Source: a virus. Taken from it: DNA of 28,679 bases. A program made the translations under genes and the position numbers. How positions within the stretch are numbered: the stretch's first letter is position 1; each line of letters opens with the position of its first letter. Under the pieces are notes generated by a model. The model worked only from the letters and a program-made list of their open reading frames with translations, did not search any database and was not told the DNA's origin. The stretch lies in IMG/VR virus record IMGVR_UViG_3300030450_001163, positions 1 through 28,679 of that record; one strand, 5' to 3'. This document shows positions 798 to 28,679 of the stretch, piece by piece.

Positions 798-1379
798 ATG
801 AAAGAGGTTAAATTGACAATACCTGATAAGTGGTCTGATATAACAATAGGCACTTATCAAAAATATGTGAAAATACAGAATGGCAAGGGAAGTGAGAAAA
901 ATAAGATTGTAAAGAGCTTGGCTTTATTATGCGGCACAAGTCCATTTATAGTAAAGAAAATGGCTTACAAAGATTTATTAGAGATAATGTCTATCATTAA
1001 AACAATGATTGATACTGAGCCTGACAAAGAAGAGTTTAGAAAGGTATTTAAATTTAAAGATGAAGAATATGGATTCTGTCCTAATCTTAGTAACATTAGC
1101 ACAGGAGAATATATAGATTTAGAAAACTATTGCAAAGAACCTATAGAGAACTTGCATATTATTATGTCAATACTTTATAGAAAGATAAATTTTTCTAGGG
1201 GAGAGAGATATAGTATAGAAGATTATAACCCTGATGAATTTAAAGAAGAACTATTTAAGGATTGTCCAATGGATATAGCACTTAACTGTCTAGGTTTTTT
1301 TTTGACTTTAGGAAGCGAATTGGCGAAGATTTCGCACAACTATTTACAAGCTCTGCAAACCAAACAACAGAAGGCGTAA
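798..1379 (+). CDS. Tail assembly chaperone (gpG-like, zero-frame product)
   Basis: A 193-residue protein, the first gene after the terminase. By position and by its link to a -1 frame extension it is the tail assembly chaperone that coats the tape measure before tail tube polymerisation, like lambda gpG. I do not recognise a specific family from its sequence alone. A run of nine T (1295-1303) near its 3' end allows a -1 shift that replaces the last 24 residues with a 79-residue tail ending at 1543. The role comes mainly from architecture: short overlapping second ORF, slippery run, and neighbouring tail genes. It starts two bases after the TATATTTATTAG motif, suggesting a leaderless or very short-leader mRNA. 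Confidence 0.7.
   Translation: MKEVKLTIPDKWSDITIGTYQKYVKIQNGKGSEKNKIVKSLALLCGTSPFIVKKMAYKDLLEIMSIIKTMIDTEPDKEEFRKVFKFKDEEYGFCPNLSNISTGEYIDLENYCKEPIENLHIIMSILYRKINFSRGERYSIEDYNPDEFKEELFKDCPMDIALNCLGFFLTLGSELAKISHNYLQALQTKQQKA
1295..1304 (+). other. Predicted -1 programmed ribosomal frameshift site
   Basis: Zero-frame codons are GGT TTT TTT TTG ACT. The heptamer T TTT TTG (1298-1304) fits the X XXY YYZ slippery rule, and T TTT TTT (1295-1301) also would. The -1 frame has a stop (TAA at 1283-1285) just before this site and is then open to 1543, so the shift window is only about 95 bases and contains this run. The fusion would be about 248 residues. Confidence 0.72.
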
Positions 1380-1381
1380 GT

Positions 1382-1543
1382 ATGCAATCTAAATGGGGGT
1401 GGTATAACATCCTTTATTCTTTATCTAATAGTATTCTAGACATAGAAAAAATAACAAGATTACCAATCTTAGAAGTACTTACATATTTAGCATTTACTCA
1501 AGATTATAACAATAAACAAAGAAGCAATTATGATAACTTTTAG
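1382..1543 (+). CDS. T-like extension of tail chaperone (made by -1 frameshift)
   Basis: A 53-codon frame in the -1 register of the chaperone. From the first ATG it encodes 53 residues, but the frame is open back to 1286, so it most likely is read as a G-T type fusion from the upstream gene and not independently. The KWGWYNILYSLS segment followed by a helix with LPILEVLTYLAFTQD resembles the C-terminal part of gpGT-type chaperones, where an aromatic Trp/Tyr patch precedes a helix ending in Leu-Ala/Thr. It overlaps the start of the next gene by 14 bases. Confidence 0.65.
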   Translation: MQSKWGWYNILYSLSNSILDIEKITRLPILEVLTYLAFTQDYNNKQRSNYDNF

Positions 1544-2036
1544 AAATGCAGTAGGATTTTTGGAAAAAATCGCTGACAAGCATTATATGATAAACAGCTT
1601 TCATTGTGGTTTTATGGATGAAGTTGATATTAACAAACTAGGTGCAACAGATTATGTTATTCTATATGCCGAGCCGGGAACTGCAACAATAGACAAGGGT
1701 GTAATGACTTATAATTTTACAGTCTATGTTTTAGATATGATTAATAATGAAGATTCAGTATTCCAAGCAAATGCGGTGAGTGAACCAATTTTGGAAAAAG
1801 AGGGAAGAACAGACGCATTAAATGAAAACTTGCAAATCCTACAAGATGTTATAAATGAATTTCATCAGAACTTATATTCTACAAGTTGGGTTGATGATGA
1901 AGTAGTTTTAGACTTGCCTATTAATTGTGAACCATTCACAGCTAGATTTGATAATCTTTTAACAGGTTGGTCAGCATCAATAAGTATGCAAGTAAATAAC
2001 ACCAACAATCTGTGCATTGTACCAATTGATAGCTAA
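1530..2036 (+). CDS. Putative tail terminator / neck protein
   Basis: 168 residues with an alternating beta and helix pattern (MITFRNAVGFLEKIADKH at the start, then beta strands). I do not recognise a firm family. Its size and its position between the chaperone and a gp10-like neck protein fit a tail terminator or head-tail joining protein. It starts inside the frameshift extension and its TAA stop shares one base with the next ATG (TAATG), so the cluster is translationally coupled. Confidence 0.5.
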   Translation: MITFRNAVGFLEKIADKHYMINSFHCGFMDEVDINKLGATDYVILYAEPGTATIDKGVMTYNFTVYVLDMINNEDSVFQANAVSEPILEKEGRTDALNENLQILQDVINEFHQNLYSTSWVDDEVVLDLPINCEPFTARFDNLLTGWSASISMQVNNTNNLCIVPIDS

Positions 2037-2614
2037 TGGAACTAAAAAACACAATACAAGCGATGCAGAAACTCGGTGGCAATGTTGTCAAAGAGGGTAG
2101 AAGTGTTCTTAGAAAGGATAAAAAAGCAAATGGAACACTATACAATGACTTTGACTATTTAGTTACAGCAGGAAAAAATAGTGTAACATTAGAATTTGAA
2201 TTTGGTGGTGCTGAAGATTATTGGGCGTTTGTAGATGAAGGTGTAAAAGGTGCAGGTGGTTTTAAGGGTAGTGGTAGAATGAGAGGACAAGGAAGTCCTT
2301 TTAGATTTGGTAGTGGTAAGTCTAAAGGCAAATGGCCACAGTTTACAAGTGCAATACAAAAGTGGATTAAAAAAAAAGGAATAAAAGGTAGAGTAGATAG
2401 TAAATGGAAAAGTGCAGGAAATAAAGGGGGACAATTTATAACTAATAAAAGTTTAGGGTTCTTAATACAAAGAGCAATATATCAAAGAGGTTTAACAAGG
2501 ACTCAGTTCTTTAGCAAACCTTTTGAACAACAATTAAAAAAACAAACAGATGCTATTGTAGAAGCATTTGGAGATGATTTAGAAAAACAATTAGAAACAG
2601 TAATAGGAAAATAA
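2036..2614 (+). CDS. HK97 gp10-like neck / tail completion protein
   Basis: 192 residues, basic and glycine-rich in the middle. An N-terminal helix is followed by beta strands (VTLEFEFGGAEDYWAFVDEG) in which the AFVDEG segment corresponds to the conserved YWxxVEFG-type motif of HK97 gp10-like proteins. The C-terminal helix contains FFSKPFEQQLKKQ, also typical of that family. This family sits at the head-tail interface. Start is fixed by the TAATG overlap with the preceding gene, and only one base separates it from the next. Confidence 0.6.
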   Translation: MELKNTIQAMQKLGGNVVKEGRSVLRKDKKANGTLYNDFDYLVTAGKNSVTLEFEFGGAEDYWAFVDEGVKGAGGFKGSGRMRGQGSPFRFGSGKSKGKWPQFTSAIQKWIKKKGIKGRVDSKWKSAGNKGGQFITNKSLGFLIQRAIYQRGLTRTQFFSKPFEQQLKKQTDAIVEAFGDDLEKQLETVIGK

Positions 2615-4073: not shown

Positions 4074-7000
4074 TGAAGATAAGACTCGTTGCATATAGAA
4101 AAGCGACAAGTAGTGCTACCTCAGAGACTACTTATCAATTAGACCTACAAGAAGCTCCTAATATATCTTTAAATTATCAATTTTCAGATATTAAAGACCC
4201 TGCAACAAGAAAGGGGGGTTTTAGTCAAACTTTCAAATTACCTTTTACGGATAATAATAATCAATTTTTTCAAGATTGGTATAATGTAAATTTAGAAACT
4301 TTAGTTTTTACTACTAGAAAGAAATTTGATGCAACACTATTTGTGGGGACTGTACCACAGTTTGAAGGTTCTTTACAATTAAAAGCTGTATATCAAAAAG
4401 CTCAGGTTTATGAAGTAGTGTTAATGTCTACGGCATCAACATTATTCAGCGTAATAGGAGAGCAAAGATTAAAAGATGTTTTTCTAGAAGAGAGCGGTTC
4501 TTATATTGCGAGTTTTAACCACGTCTATGATGAAACTACTTTAGCTAAGTCATGGGGAAATACTTTAACAAATGCAGCAGGAGGTTCTTTATATGATAGC
4601 GATTCTTCAGTATCTAAAATAGTATATCCTCTTTCTGTTACTAGAGATAAATTTTACTATGACCCTAATGATACTAATGGAGTAGTAAGTAATATAAAGC
4701 GCTATCTAAGAATGGACCAATCTTTTGCTAGTGCTTGGAATGCGGGAGGGGGTAATTTAGCTTATAGCTATTCAGTACCTATAACTCAGTTTAGACCTGC
4801 TGTACAAATAAGAGCTATATTAAGACTGCTACTAGGAAGGGCAGGATTTACCTATACATCAACTTTTATTGATTCAGACCCTTTTAATAAAATCTTTATG
4901 ACTACAGCAAATCATATAGAAGTTCCTGTAGTGCCAACTGTAAATGCCAATCCTAGTGGATTTTCAGTAGTGGGAAATTCCTCTCAATGGGGGGCTTATT
5001 ACTTTACATCAGGCGAGTCACAAACCTTTTATGCAACGTATTCTCCTGATATGAATACACCATCAGCTAGCTGTACTGTTCCTAACGACCCTGATTCTAT
5101 ATGGGATTTGACTAATAATACTTTTGAGAAAAAAGATGTTACAATGTATCAATTAAGGCTAAAAACAATTATGAGAGGTTACAATGTTTCCATGCCTACC
5201 CTTGGTAGTCTGGGAATAAGAGTTAGAGCTAAAATGTATCTTGTAATAGATGGGAATGTAGATTATAATCAATCTGTAGATACTATAACCACATACCTGA
5301 GCCAATATGGGGGGGATACTTTTAGTGAGCTCCTTGACTTTACATTCGATATATCAGAAATGCCTGTAGGCGCAAAAGCTCTTATTTCAATAAGGGTTAA
5401 TAGCTTTACCGGATGGGACCAAGACGCTTCATCTTCTCTTATCTTAGGTTACTATACTGATTTAAGTAATGATTATGATTTGGCTTGTGGAAATTCCTAT
5501 TCTAGTGCAAGAATAGATTGGATTGGATATAGCACCACCAACATTTTTAATAAAACTGTAGATTTTCCTTCTTGCATAGACCCTGAAATTACTCAGAAAG
5601 CCTTTTTAAAAGACATAATACAAAGATTTAATTTAGTAGTAGTGCCAGACCCTAATGACCCAAATAATTTACTTATAGAGCCTTATAATGACTTTATTGC
5701 TAGTGGTAACATACAGTATTGGACAGACAAGCTAGATACCTCCAAAGAAGTAGTAGTTAAAGATACTACAGAAATGCAAAAAAAGACAATACACTTAACA
5801 GACCAAGAAGATGAAGATTTATACAACAAATCTATAAGAGAGCGATATCCTGCTGTTAATGTTTATAGTCACCTAAAACAACAAAACTCTACAAATGACT
5901 TTGCAACAGGAGAATTTACAGTTGATACGATATTCTCACCATTTATCAATGGGCAAGTTTTTGCTAGTGAAAATGAAGAGCTAGGAACATTCTTGCCTAA
6001 TATGGCAGTACATTATGAAAGAAGCTATGAAACCAATGATGGAGTTTCAACTATTTCTATTGCTAAAACTAAACCCAAGCTTTTTTATTATCCAGGTTCA
6101 GCAACTACTGTAAAGGATTTAGATGGTGCTACACAGACTTATTATCTACATAATACTGCTAGTGGTACTACAACTGCTTATAGTTTTACTACATATCCTA
6201 AGTGTACCCCTTATGTACTTACTAATTCAAATACTAGCTCTTTAGACTCAACAACAAATTCCCTTCATTGGAACTCTACTCCTCCATTAGTAGGAAACTT
6301 GTCTGTATTTCAATATGGCTATGATTATGGAAATTGGTATAATAACACTTTATACGGTAAGTATTGGAAAAGTTATCTTGATAATATATACAGCCAAGAT
6401 GCTAGAATAATGGAATGTTATCTTAATCTTAATGAGGTAGATATATATAATTTTAGTTTTAAAGACGAAATTTTCATAAAAGATAGTTATTGGAGGTTAT
6501 TAAAAATAGAGAACTATCAGGTTAACGCACAAGCTTCTACAAAAGTTACTTTAATAAAAGTTTTAGATACTTTTGAAACTGCTGAGGATTGTAATTATGT
6601 TCTTGGATTTATTGGAACTTCAAACCTTTTGTCTAATCAGTATTTCATGTGGTGTCCAGATACTGACCCAGGGTGTGAGCCTTTAATAACAGGAACTGGT
6701 TTAGGTATTTATGCAAACCCATCATGCTGTATAAATAATGGAGGAGAGATTGCTTGGCAATATACTGCCTACGCAGATGATGGCCTATATCCTTGTCTGG
6801 CTAATTCAGGCAGCCTACCTGTAAGGCTTAAAAGTATATATACATCACGGTCTATATTACAAACAGGAACAACGAAGACTTTTATTAGTAATATAATAGG
6901 AGGACTCAACAGAGCTTTAGTTAGAGGTGTAGATAACACTAAATATAGTCAAAGGATTCTGCCTGATGTTGGTGATGATATTGTTATAAAATATAAAAAT

Positions 7001-7706: not shown

Positions 7707-9227
7707 ATGTCACAAAAGAAAACAATAATAATAGATGTAGATGCTAAAGATGGTATCAAGCAAGTAGACAACCTAAAAAAAGGAGTTGAAGGAGTAGATA
7801 CTTCTTCTAAAGGAGCAAAAACAGGTTTAGGAGGAATGACAGGAATGACAAAAAAACTAGGTGTTGCATTTAAAGCGCTTGGCATTGGTCTTATTGTAGC
7901 TGCTTTTATGAAGCTAAAAGATATATTTAGTGGTAATATAGAAACAGCTAGAGCTTTTGAAAGAGTGACATCACAGCTTAGTGCTGCCTTTGATGTTATA
8001 AGAGATAGGGCTGAGGATTTTATTAAATCACTAATAAAATTAAAAAATCCACTTAAAGCATTTAAAGAGGCATTTACAGGTACAACAGCAGAAATAAAAG
8101 AAGAAACTAAAGCAATGGGCGATTTAACAACGCAGTTGCAAAAAGTAAGAGATGAAGAGAGAGATATGCTGTTAATTAGAGCAAAAGCTAACAAGATTAT
8201 AGCAGAATCTAGGCTATTAGCAGAAGATGATACCAAGTCAATGGAAGAAAGATTAGCGGCATTAAAAGCAGCAGTAGCAGAAGAAAAAAGAGTAGCAGAT
8301 ATGGAGGTTGCTACACAAAAAAAGAAGGTTGATACACTACAGGCGGTGATTGATTTAGGAAAATCAAGCGAGGAAGACATTGCAGAATTAGCGGCTGAAA
8401 GAGCAAGATTGATTGAACTTCAAACAGCATCAGTATTAAAACAAAAAAGAGTAGCTGCTGAAATAGGCACATTTACAAATCAAATTGCTAAAAAAGAAGA
8501 AAAAATTGAAACAGATAGATTAGCAAGAATAGAATTAAATAATGCAGCTAAAGAGTTAGGACTTCAAATTACTGAAGAGATGACTAATAAAGAAGTAGAT
8601 GCTTTAATTAAAAAGAAAGAGAAAGAATTAGAAGTTGAACAAAAAGCAGCAGAGAAGCTCAAAATATTTAATGAAAAAGAAGCAGAAAAACTAAAAAAAC
8701 AAAAGGAGAAAGAAGCTGCTGCTGATTTGAAGATTCAAAAAGCTAAAATAGCTGCTCGAAAAGCTGCCGAAATACAGGGCGCAAAAATGCTTTTAGGAAC
8801 ATTAGGAAAATTAGCTGGAGAGGGAACTGCCGCGGCTAAAGCAACGGCTGTAGCACAAATTTTAATTAATTCTGCACAAGGTGTATCAGCAGCTATAAAA
8901 GCAGGAGCAGGTATTCCTTTTCCTGGAAATTTAGCTGCAATCGCAACAGGTGTAAGTACCGTTCTAGGGGGAATAGCTAGTGCAAAAGCTGTATTAAGTA
9001 AAGTAGAAGGACCAGACGAAGGGATTGATGATGATGTTTCAGACGTTAATGTCGATAGTACAAGTATAGCACAATCGGGCTTAACAGGACAGATACCTCA
9101 ATTTGAAGGAATCTTTGGAACACCAGGACAAACAGGACAACAACCTGTTCAGGCTTTTGTAGTAGAAAATGATATTAGTAATGCACAAGCATTGCAAAGC
9201 GAATTAGAAATACAAGCAACTTTGTAA
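7707..9227 (+). CDS. Tape measure protein (short)
   Basis: 506 residues, Ala/Lys/Glu-rich. An N-terminal amphipathic part contains a hydrophobic helix (about residues 51-70, LGVAFKALGIGLIVAAFMKL). A long coiled coil spans about 125-350. The C-terminal hydrophobic Gly/Ala segment (about 365-435) may insert in the membrane during DNA ejection. This is the classical tape measure pattern. At about 1.5 angstrom per residue it predicts a tail of roughly 75 nm. Alanine and glutamate codons dominate, which produces a long spurious open frame on the other strand. Confidence 0.82.
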   Translation: MSQKKTIIIDVDAKDGIKQVDNLKKGVEGVDTSSKGAKTGLGGMTGMTKKLGVAFKALGIGLIVAAFMKLKDIFSGNIETARAFERVTSQLSAAFDVIRDRAEDFIKSLIKLKNPLKAFKEAFTGTTAEIKEETKAMGDLTTQLQKVRDEERDMLLIRAKANKIIAESRLLAEDDTKSMEERLAALKAAVAEEKRVADMEVATQKKKVDTLQAVIDLGKSSEEDIAELAAERARLIELQTASVLKQKRVAAEIGTFTNQIAKKEEKIETDRLARIELNNAAKELGLQITEEMTNKEVDALIKKKEKELEVEQKAAEKLKIFNEKEAEKLKKQKEKEAAADLKIQKAKIAARKAAEIQGAKMLLGTLGKLAGEGTAAAKATAVAQILINSAQGVSAAIKAGAGIPFPGNLAAIATGVSTVLGGIASAKAVLSKVEGPDEGIDDDVSDVNVDSTSIAQSGLTGQIPQFEGIFGTPGQTGQQPVQAFVVENDISNAQALQSELEIQATL

Positions 9228-10295: not shown

Positions 10296-11006
10296 ATGGG
10301 AACTATAGAAAAAATTTTAAATCTCTTGAAAATGAAAAATGAACCTAAATCTTATAGCGTAAAATTCTACGCTGAAATGAAATTAGATGATGGTCGTGTT
10401 GTTGCTACAGAAGATGAGCAATTCATGATTGGGTCTAAGGTCTTCGCTGTTGGTGACGATGGTGAAGCAGAAGCATTGGCAGCGGGAAGCTATACAATGG
10501 AAAACGGAAATAAAATGACAATTGGTGAAAACTCTGAAATCCTAGACTTAGGTGAAGAAAAAGAAGCTGAAGATGTTGAGGCATCTGAAGAAGAACTTTC
10601 TGAAGAAGTAGCTGAGGAGTCTAAAGAAGAAGAATTAGCTGAAGAATCAGAAGCAGAAGAAACTGATTGGGCTAAAACTTTTGAAGAAATGAAAGATAGA
10701 GTTGCTGAATTAGAAAAAGCAGTCTTTGGTGAAAAAGCTGAAGAAGAAACTGAAGCTTTATCTAAAGAAGTTACTGAAGAAAACAAAGAAGATTCTGAAG
10801 ATGACAAGACAGAAATGTCTAATGAAGTTATAGGGGAACTTATGACACAAATCGAAGAATTAAAAAGTAAAATAGTTGAATTAAGCAACGAACCTGCTAC
10901 GGAAGGTATTTCATACAATCCTGAAGGTTCTAACTTTAGCTCAACTGTTGACTTAGCAAAACTGTCACCTATGGAGAGGACAGCATATTACATTAATAAC
11001 AAATAA
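10296..11006 (+). CDS. Scaffolding protein
   Basis: 236 residues, extremely acidic between about 80 and 175 (Glu-rich repeats such as EEKEAEDVEASEEELSEEV), with predicted helix and coiled coil at about 120-140 and 180-200. The compact N-terminus (PKSYSVKFYAEMKLDDGRVV) is beta-rich, and the C-terminus ends in a short helix (LSPMERTAYYINNK), typical of scaffold tails that bind capsid subunits. It sits between protease and major capsid, ten bases before the latter. Acidity, coiled coil and location support the call. Confidence 0.78.
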   Translation: MGTIEKILNLLKMKNEPKSYSVKFYAEMKLDDGRVVATEDEQFMIGSKVFAVGDDGEAEALAAGSYTMENGNKMTIGENSEILDLGEEKEAEDVEASEEELSEEVAEESKEEELAEESEAEETDWAKTFEEMKDRVAELEKAVFGEKAEEETEALSKEVTEENKEDSEDDKTEMSNEVIGELMTQIEELKSKIVELSNEPATEGISYNPEGSNFSSTVDLAKLSPMERTAYYINNK

Positions 11007-12069: not shown

Positions 12070-12663
12070 ATGGCTTGTAATATTACAAGAGGACGTTTAA
12101 TTGACTGCAAAGATAGCATAGGTGGGTTGAAAGCCATTTATATTGCTAAGTCATACAGCAATAATATTTCTGCTGTAGCTACTATTAATACTACTGAAAT
12201 GACAACAGCAGGTTTTGCTACTTGGTCTTGTTGTGGAGGTACTGTTGAAGTATTTAAATATGACTTAGTTCAGAATTTATCTAGTATGACTGTAAACATA
12301 AATTCAGACAATGCTAATGGAACAACATTTTTTGAACAGACATTATCTGTTACTCTACAAAAAATTGACCACGATATGACTAACGAGCTGAGGTTAATGG
12401 CTTACAGTCGTTCACAGATATTTGTACAAGATTCTATGGATAATGTATTCTTATTAGGTATTGATGGTGGATGCCATGTAACAGGAGGTACTGTTGTTAC
12501 AGGAACTGCTAAAGGAGATATGAATGGGTACACTATTGAATGGGGAGCACAAGAAAAGAACGCTTTAATACAGCTTCCTGCTAGTGCAGGTGCTGCAACA
12601 GCTAAGTTTCCATTTGATGGGTTAACTGATGAAGCTAACTTAACAATTACTGTAGGAACTTAA
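12070..12663 (+). CDS. Probable major tail tube protein
   Basis: 197 residues with a beta-rich pattern and a conserved-looking start (MACNITRGRLIDCKDSIGGL) that I associate with Bacteroidota phage structural proteins. Size fits a tail tube subunit. It has its own terminator on both sides, immediately after the capsid gene, indicating a separately and strongly expressed virion protein. No other gene here is a better tube candidate. The specific assignment is inference; a head decoration protein is the alternative. Confidence 0.5.
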   Translation: MACNITRGRLIDCKDSIGGLKAIYIAKSYSNNISAVATINTTEMTTAGFATWSCCGGTVEVFKYDLVQNLSSMTVNINSDNANGTTFFEQTLSVTLQKIDHDMTNELRLMAYSRSQIFVQDSMDNVFLLGIDGGCHVTGGTVVTGTAKGDMNGYTIEWGAQEKNALIQLPASAGAATAKFPFDGLTDEANLTITVGT

Positions 12664-27174: not shown

Positions 27175-27785
27175 TTTTAAAAGTAATACCATCAGATGCT
27201 GCAAATGAATTTGTAAAAAAACATCATTATTCAGGAAAGTTTTGTATGAATAGTCAGTTGCATTTCGGGTGTTTTCTAGACAAAAAATTAGGTGGTGTAA
27301 TGTCATACGGTTGCCCTATTGATAAAAGAAAAGTAATAGGAATTGTAAAGGGAACAAAGTGGAATGAGTTTTTAGAATTAAACAGAATGGCTTTTAGTGA
27401 CTTGTTACCAAAGTATTCAGAAAGCAGATGTATAGCAATTAGTGTGAAATTATTAAAAAAAAATGCACCTCATATTAAATGGATTTTAAGTTTTGCAGAT
27501 GGAACACAATGTGGAGACGGAACAATCTATAGGGCTAGTGGATTTAAATTAATTGGAATAAAAAAAAATACAACAATATATAAACTGCAGAGTGGAGAAA
27601 CACTAGCAAAGCACGGAACAAGTAAAAGAGATTTTACAAATTCTGAAAGATTAAAGGGTTATCAATTAAAGTATATATATTTTATAGACAAAACAAAAGA
27701 AAAAGATTTAACTGTTCCTGTAATGCCTTTTTCTAAAATTAAAGAAATGGGAGCAGGAATGTATAAGGGAAAAATGCGAGTATAG
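27153..27785 (+). CDS. mom: Mom-like adenine modification enzyme
   Basis: 210 residues. Resembles the GNAT-type Mom family, which in phage Mu converts adenine to a carbamoylmethyl-type derivative that protects DNA from restriction. Visible conserved segments: HHYSGK (24-29), CFLDKKLGGVMSYG, ELNRMAF (75-81), SFADG (113-117) and GTIYRASGF (123-131). Its start overlaps the ParB-like gene by 22 bases, and a promoter-like motif lies just before it. Its last 10 bases overlap the 5' end of the tRNA-like gene. This is probably the phage's main DNA-masking activity along with the cytosine methyltransferase. Confidence 0.82.
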   Translation: MGRAKEIILKVIPSDAANEFVKKHHYSGKFCMNSQLHFGCFLDKKLGGVMSYGCPIDKRKVIGIVKGTKWNEFLELNRMAFSDLLPKYSESRCIAISVKLLKKNAPHIKWILSFADGTQCGDGTIYRASGFKLIGIKKNTTIYKLQSGETLAKHGTSKRDFTNSERLKGYQLKYIYFIDKTKEKDLTVPVMPFSKIKEMGAGMYKGKMRV

Positions 27786-27866: not shown

Positions 27867-28226
27867 ATGAACAAAAGTAGACACATTAAAAAAGAAACTT
27901 TATTAAAGGCGTTAGAAAAGAGTTTAGGGGTTGTAACAATAGCTTGTAAAAAAGCTGACATTCCTAGAAGCACATATTACAAATGGCTTAAAGATGATGA
28001 GGAATTTAGACAGCAAGTTCAAGAGATTGAGAATGTTGCATTAGACTTTGCAGAAAGCCAATTACACCAACAGATTCAAGATAACTCAACAGCAGCTACT
28101 ATATTCTTTTTAAAGACTAAAGGCAAGACTAGGGGATATACTGAGAAGTCTGAGTTAGATATAACGACTGATGGTAAGTCTATAACTGACATAAATATAA
28201 AAGTAATTGACACAGGTAACGATTGA
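27867..28226 (+). CDS. terS: Terminase small subunit
   Basis: 119 residues. An N-terminal HTH (ALEKSLGVVTIACKKADIPR, then STYYKWLKDDEEF) recognises packaging initiation sequence, followed by a coiled-coil oligomerisation helix (about 48-90) and a flexible C-terminus. Position immediately before the large terminase supports the call. The large subunit's likely TTG start overlaps its last codons. Confidence 0.85.
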   Translation: MNKSRHIKKETLLKALEKSLGVVTIACKKADIPRSTYYKWLKDDEEFRQQVQEIENVALDFAESQLHQQIQDNSTAATIFFLKTKGKTRGYTEKSELDITTDGKSITDINIKVIDTGND

Positions 28227-28679
28227 TACTACAAATGTCTTTCACAAGGCGTATAAGTCTAGCACACGAATTACTTGTCTTCAGGGGGGGACACGTTCTT
28301 CAAAGACTTATTCGCTTTGTCAATTATTTATAGTAAAAGCATTAAGAGAAACAGGCAAAGTATTTACTATATGTAGGAAAACATTACCTGCTCTTAAAGG
28401 TACAGCTTATCGTGATGTGTTAGAATTGCTAAAAGAATTAGGTTTATATTCAGAAGAATACCACAACAAATCAGAATTATCTTACACATTGAATGGCAAT
28501 CTAATTGAGTTCATTAGTGTTGACCAACCACAAAAGATTAGAGGACGTAAGCGTAACTACTTATGGCTCAATGAAGCTAATGAGTTTACTTATGAAGATT
28601 ATCAACAGCTTATATTAAGAACAACAGATAAAGTCTATTTAGACTATAATCCTTCAGACCCCTATAGTTGGATATATGA
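28207..28679 (+). CDS. terL: Terminase large subunit, N-terminal part (continues at base 1)
   Basis: ATPase half of the packaging motor, in frame with base 1 across the circular join. The Walker A motif GGTRSSKT lies at 28285-28308, and the Walker B LWLNEANE at 28561-28584. There is no ATG in this frame; TTG at 28207, just after an in-frame TAA, gives a start MTQVTIDTTNVFHKAYK that fits the family. ATT at 28222 is an alternative. The gene overlaps terS by 20 bases. The sequence ends inside the gene because the circle was cut here. Confidence 0.9.
   Translation, partial: MTQVTIDTTNVFHKAYKSSTRITCLQGGTRSSKTYSLCQLFIVKALRETGKVFTICRKTLPALKGTAYRDVLELLKELGLYSEEYHNKSELSYTLNGNLIEFISVDQPQKIRGRKRNYLWLNEANEFTYEDYQQLILRTTDKVYLDYNPSDPYSWIY
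28603..28679. repeat. Right copy of 77-bp terminal direct repeat
   Basis: Identical to bases 1-77; see the left copy. Trimming one copy gives a 28,602-bp circular genome. Confidence 0.95.

Follow-up and report, generated by a model that had tools for sequence, protein, structure and literature searches.

Candidate transcriptional slippage on a conserved T-run in a tail assembly chaperone-like gene pair of Bacteroidota-associated phages

Among tailed phages, the gpG:gpGT ratio is a textbook example of ribosomal frameshifting. A 28.7-kb virus record (IMG/VR IMGVR_UViG_3300030450_001163, positions 1–28,679, analyzed whole and called the window here) contains a gene in which a run of nine Ts is followed by an open -1 frame. 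The locus raises two questions: whether the two frames are joined at this run and, if so, whether the ribosome or RNA polymerase slips. The window is probably a complete phage genome, circularly assembled or terminally redundant, since its large terminase gene is split over the two ends (28207–28677 and 1–762) and QQLILRTTDKVYLDYNPSDPYSWIY is present at both.

The T-run and its reading frames

A preliminary description of the window proposed that a tail assembly chaperone gene is extended by a -1 frameshift at a slippery heptamer within the run. The features of the locus are as follows.

798–1379, plus strand: zero-frame ORF, G-like protein of 193 aa, PHROG 32199 (unknown function); omega of 0.07 upstream of the run
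1295–1303, plus strand: nine-T run, putative slippage site, codons GGT TTT TTT TTG
1298–1304, plus strand: in-phase heptamer T TTT TTG, the slippery site of the preliminary description
1295–1301, plus strand: second in-phase heptamer, T TTT TTT, whose codons are the homologues of those forming the conserved T TTT TTN core in other clades
1303–1305, plus strand: TGA in the +1 frame at the run end
1304–1543, plus strand: -1-frame extension, predicted T-like domain with a WGWY motif by alignment, stop included; omega in the window's clade of 0.23 in the overlap and 0.06 beyond the zero-frame stop
1382–1384, plus strand: ATG in the -1 frame of the extension, a possible extra start in the window's subclade only

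The zero-frame codons at the run are GGT at 1293, TTT, TTT and then TTG at 1302. The zero-frame stop lies at 1377–1379, with ATG 1382 directly 3′ of it. The -1 frame has a stop at 1283–1285 and is then open from 1286 up to TAG at 1541–1543, giving a predicted fusion of 169 + 79 = 248 residues. Recomputation from the sequence returned the same closed and open stretches and the same fusion length as the preliminary description, whose coordinates for the site and the frames were all correct. Its heptamer T TTT TTG is a valid slippery site in phase with the zero-frame codons, but the second in-phase heptamer at 1295–1301 had been overlooked. Among tail genes, T TTT TTG has a precedent in E/E′ of phage P2.

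Homologues were gathered from IMG/VR and one genome collection, named phages and two Bacteroidota MAG contigs found by single-protein search, a Winogradskyella bin (L385) and a Bacteroidetes bin (L386). They reach down to about 25% identity, and the gene was placed in all 387 sequences, window included, by a profile of the G-like protein. Some contigs are counted more than once in the 387, and the clusters (82 at 80% identity, 41 at 60%) are the better count.

Translation of the -1 frame

Wherever a locus has sufficient flank, the -1 frame continues open into a conserved domain carrying WGWY or a close variant. Stop codons that would separate the run from the extension in the -1 frame, named by the preliminary description as evidence against a fusion, were found in none of the relatives. 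Omega was computed for 28 non-overlapping pairs of the window's own clade over the stretch from the run to the zero-frame stop. In this overlap the zero frame gave 0.44 and the +1 frame 2.1, and these values, together with the 0.23 of the -1 frame, support the proposed -1 fusion at the T-run. In other clades (85 pairs), omega of the -1 frame was 0.25 across the greater part of the overlap. The zero-frame tail of these clades, which can reach about 260 nt beyond the run, is only weakly constrained (omega of 0.68), so the precise C-terminus of the short product may be of little importance in them. Comparative sequence analysis demonstrates coding in two frames with a conserved -1 relation, and indicates translation of the -1 frame upstream of the candidate start at 1382. 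The predicted products begin with the same N-terminus and diverge at a frame shift close to where the first ORF ends, as in a G/GT-type pair.

It might be argued that the extension is a separate gene of 53 aa, read from ATG 1382 by re-initiation after the zero-frame stop and without any shift. This ATG immediately follows the stop and hardly varies within the window's own clade, and the annotation of the Nonlabens phages lists the extension as a gene of its own. However, the stretch 5′ of the ATG is already coding in the -1 frame, and residues encoded there are common to distant clades. The ATG is missing even within the clade, being replaced by TTA in L070, L080, L155 and L156. Across the clusters, the -1 frame lacks ATG, GTG and TTG between the run and WGWY in 59/78, and the zero frame passes WGWY in 63/78, so that the motif is nested inside the first ORF. 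Independent initiation is thus not the general mechanism. The independent start at 1382, which the preliminary description had also named as evidence against a fusion, is ruled out in that general sense, and an extension made from such a start only is highly improbable.

Run length and the slipping machine

By itself, a nine-T run is ordinary in the AT-rich window, where four were seen on both strands against 5.2 expected. Chance was ruled out by conservation. A run of at least nine Ts lies at the homologous place in 387/387 loci (9 Ts in 313, 10 in 68, 11 in 6 and fewer than 9 in none), against six other plus-strand runs of at least nine Ts in 388 kb of cluster representatives. Phase variation at the DNA level and a pseudogene were likewise ruled out, since the runs of 10 or 11 Ts preserve the -1 relation via flanking changes and no locus among the relatives has both frames fused.

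Programmed -1 ribosomal frameshifting, the mechanism implied by the preliminary description, has to be weighed first. Modeled on the tail genes of lambda and P2, it would involve slippage on T TTT TTN by a P-site tRNA-Phe together with an A-site tRNA-Phe or tRNA-Leu, the long run being a by-product of Phe, Leu and Tyr codons in overlapping frames. Ribosomal frameshifting is the usual mechanism for tail chaperones (PMC5009743), and in E. coli the majority of X_XXZ_ZZN heptamers are prone to shifting when stimulated (PMC4066793). In all 387 loci an in-phase T TTT TTN heptamer, of the form X XXY YYZ, is present at the same codons. Such a core, in phase and at a fixed place, is exactly what ribosomal frameshifting conserves, and it casts doubt on slippage by RNA polymerase. 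However, the heptamer requires only 6–7 Ts; if it were the sole need, runs of 6–8 Ts would be expected, yet none occur and the floor is nine in every phase.

With an invariant Phe codon as reference, start positions of -5, -3, -2 and -1 and end positions from 4 to 9 were recorded for the run. The two ends shift jointly, from [-5,4] to [-1,9], and the length never falls below nine, a run of at least nine being kept in all three codon phases. When the ends were shuffled among the 82 clusters (10,000 shuffles), a mean of 22 and a minimum of 14 runs were shorter than nine, whereas the observed number was 0. On the tree, at least four codon-phase changes and seven run-length changes were counted, none of the latter to fewer than nine, and sister lineages have exchanged a 5′ extension (L303) for a 3′ extension (L181, L202).

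The commonest form of the site, NTT TTT TTT TAY/TGG, permits a doubly silent T-to-C change at the last base of the heptamer, which leaves T TTT TTC in place and drops the run to 7. This change was possible in 51/51 clusters and found in 0, with P between 1e-5 (all Phe codons) and 0.011 (Phe after TTT). At 60% clustering it was absent from 28/28 clusters (P of 6.5e-4 to 0.048). In lineages with the run extended 5′, the last base of the heptamer is G, A or C in 8/9 clusters. The lack of a change that would retain the heptamer speaks against ribosomal frameshifting.

A stimulator is frequent at ribosomal frameshift sites but not obligatory. In pseudoknot-free folding, downstream structure was not enriched in the 60 nt from 5 nt after the run (mean z of -0.07 over 82 clusters), and the window's own z-score after the run was also near zero. 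A pseudoknot-free downstream stem-loop stimulator was ruled out on these values. An upstream Shine-Dalgarno stimulator was ruled out as well, such a signal before the run being no more frequent than in the control (0.18 vs 0.16). With no enriched structure, and with a run of at least nine rather than just the heptamer as the conserved quantity, ribosomal slippage on the heptamer is the less supported part of the preliminary description, and is regarded here as possible though doubtful.

Transcriptional realignment uses T-runs over 8 and A-runs over 7 (PMC3711429), and a 9A or 9T run conserved in length among homologues is a mark of purposeful slippage (PMC1088944). At the present locus, the T-run exceeds 8 in 387/387 loci, and its length is conserved irrespective of codon phase, as seen from the three phases, the co-sliding ends and the doubly silent change. 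The length floor, the phase independence and the missing stimulators fit transcriptional slippage better than ribosomal frameshifting. From this comparison, RNA polymerase slippage on the T-run (U9 to U10) is fairly likely to be the source of the shift.

The RNA:DNA hybrid is 8–9 bp long, and E. coli RNA polymerase favors T runs, with insertion of about 5% at T7 and 10% at T8 (PMC6260861). The nine-T run would thus span about the whole hybrid, and the weak rU:dA hybrid could re-pair out of register, so that some transcripts would gain one extra U. Translated normally, these U10 transcripts would give the fusion and the U9 transcripts the G-like protein. One gene would in this way yield two proteins, the G-like protein of 798–1379 and a G-T-like fusion with a conserved helical domain. 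Transcripts slipped the other way (one U fewer, or two extra) would end at the +1-frame stop, which was found at most 8 nt past the run in 80/81 readable clusters; its nearness is partly a by-product of doubly coded TTTAGG. Known frameshift yields include 6–7% in one test (PMC3711429) and a ratio of about 1:30 in lambda (PMC5009743), and the slippage yield is expected to lie within the range of known tail-chaperone frameshifts or somewhat above it.

Several further points weigh against RNA polymerase as the slipping machine. The clusters are non-independent, with about four phase changes certain, and two-frame protein constraint by itself favors T-rich codons. In addition, E. coli RNA polymerase slips at T7–T8, so a sharp floor of nine is strictly unneeded. 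Three plus-strand A9 runs lie within other predicted genes of the window (2369–2377, 27455–27463 and 27560–27568); such slips may thus be tolerated.

Both machines might also act together, with RNA polymerase slippage setting most of the ratio, the ribosome slipping on the same U run too, and a possible 53-aa T-only product added in the window's clade. The same run carries both signals and the ATG is conserved in that clade, but a dual mechanism is less simple and is considered improbable.

Chaperone role and comparison with known systems

The neighborhood of the gene pair includes the following genes.

1530–2036, plus strand: conserved downstream neighbor of 168 aa, function unknown; the homologue in the Bacteroidetes MAG contig matches PHROG 30964
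2036–2614, plus strand: neighbor, PHROG 29822; the Nonlabens homologue weakly matches neck/tail-completion and HK97-gp10-like families
7707–9227, plus strand: tape measure protein, assigned via the Nonlabens homologue gp50 (phrog_9483, E of 5.6e-12)

The gene order is TerL, the G/T pair, the 168-aa gene, the HK97-gp10/neck-like gene, two larger genes and the tape measure gene. It is the same in the Bacteroidetes MAG contig and largely also in Nonlabens phage P12024L. The pair thus lies in a tail module upstream of the tape measure gene and on the same strand. It is not adjacent to that gene, which casts some doubt on a chaperone role, although adjacency is taken here as typical and not as defining.

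The G-like and T-like parts match PHROG 32199 and 38404, two families without an assigned function. Neither part is covered by a Pfam, NCBIfam or annotated PHROG family, and no curated chaperone match was found. The AlphaFold2 model of the G-like part had a pLDDT of 84.8 and that of the T-domain 59. The best BFVD matches of the G-like model are uncharacterized phage proteins, and one weak match is annotated as a tail assembly chaperone (E of 0.023, TM of 0.44). A PDB fold search with the G-like model gave nothing at E <0.001 and VIA-align Z of at most 2.8, and a PDB sequence search for a named chaperone family gave nothing significant. The tail assembly chaperone label came from the preliminary description; it agrees with the architecture, the synteny and the link to the tape measure gene, whereas homology amounts to the one weak structural match. 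From architecture and synteny with the tape measure gene, the pair is likely a G/GT-like tail assembly chaperone. By analogy, the locus probably works like lambda gpG/gpGT. We infer three points: that RNA polymerase is what slips, in what ratio the products are made, and that the pair acts as a tail chaperone.

Lambda gpG/gpGT, P2 E/E′ and HK97 gp13/14 likewise pair a short protein with a -1-frame extension on a shared N-terminus, in a late-gene context with the tape measure gene on the same strand. They have no detectable sequence homology to the present pair, which follows the large terminase gene and lies several genes upstream of the tape measure gene instead of adjoining it. Moreover, lambda-type genes use a 7-base site with optional stimulators, in contrast to the long T-run with a length floor found here.

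In Shigella mxiE (Tn, n over 8), a T-run within the gene also joins two frames by transcriptional slippage, and the extra U that would give access to the -1 frame here resembles that case; mxiE is a host regulator gene, whereas here slippage is proposed for a phage tail-type gene by comparison only. The A9 run of Thermus thermophilus dnaX and the 9A/9T runs of IS elements share with this locus a length-conserved homopolymer and a stop near the run in a shifted frame. Slippage in dnaX shortens the product, while here one frame would lengthen it and the other truncate it.

The direct homologues are gp40–gp41 of Nonlabens phages P12024L and P12024S (L082/L083), with T9 at the same place, a -1-frame WGWY/WSWY extension and a gene order similar to the window's. 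They differ in that identity is 27% and the T-run is offset by one base relative to the codons. In these phages gp40 and gp41 are annotated as two separate hypothetical proteins, and the published annotation misses the fusion.

Two further observations concern related phages. Window positions 12070–12663 match two places in Nonlabens P12024L (2149–2589 and 5959–6408), which suggests, from the match pattern, a duplicated virion protein. Flavobacterium phage 6H (L387) encodes a weak structural relative, gp10 (minus strand, 10352–10927), with T TTT TTC near its end. There it is the +1 frame and not the -1 frame that remains open, over about 43 codons, so shifting in Duneviridae may be of another kind.

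There is precedent for each of the components: G/GT frameshifts, T TTT TTG sites and transcriptional slippage. In the open-licence literature, no description was found of transcriptional slippage or slippage-type sites in tail chaperone genes, of tail-chaperone frameshifts in Flavobacteria, or of this locus in Bacteroidota phages. For annotation, the extension can be corrected from a separate hypothetical gene, as listed in the Nonlabens phages, or from an unrecognized one, and pipelines seeking a heptamer plus structure may overlook such sites. With its 387 natural variants, the locus supplies ready material for testing how slippage depends on run length and codon phase.

On balance, and by a little, the evidence favors the view that a large group of Bacteroidota-associated tailed phages sets its tail-chaperone ratio by RNA polymerase slippage on a run of at least nine Ts and not by a ribosomal frameshift. 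If so, the same locus would allow a direct comparison of both mechanisms, and the selected trait would be the product ratio and not the machine that makes it.
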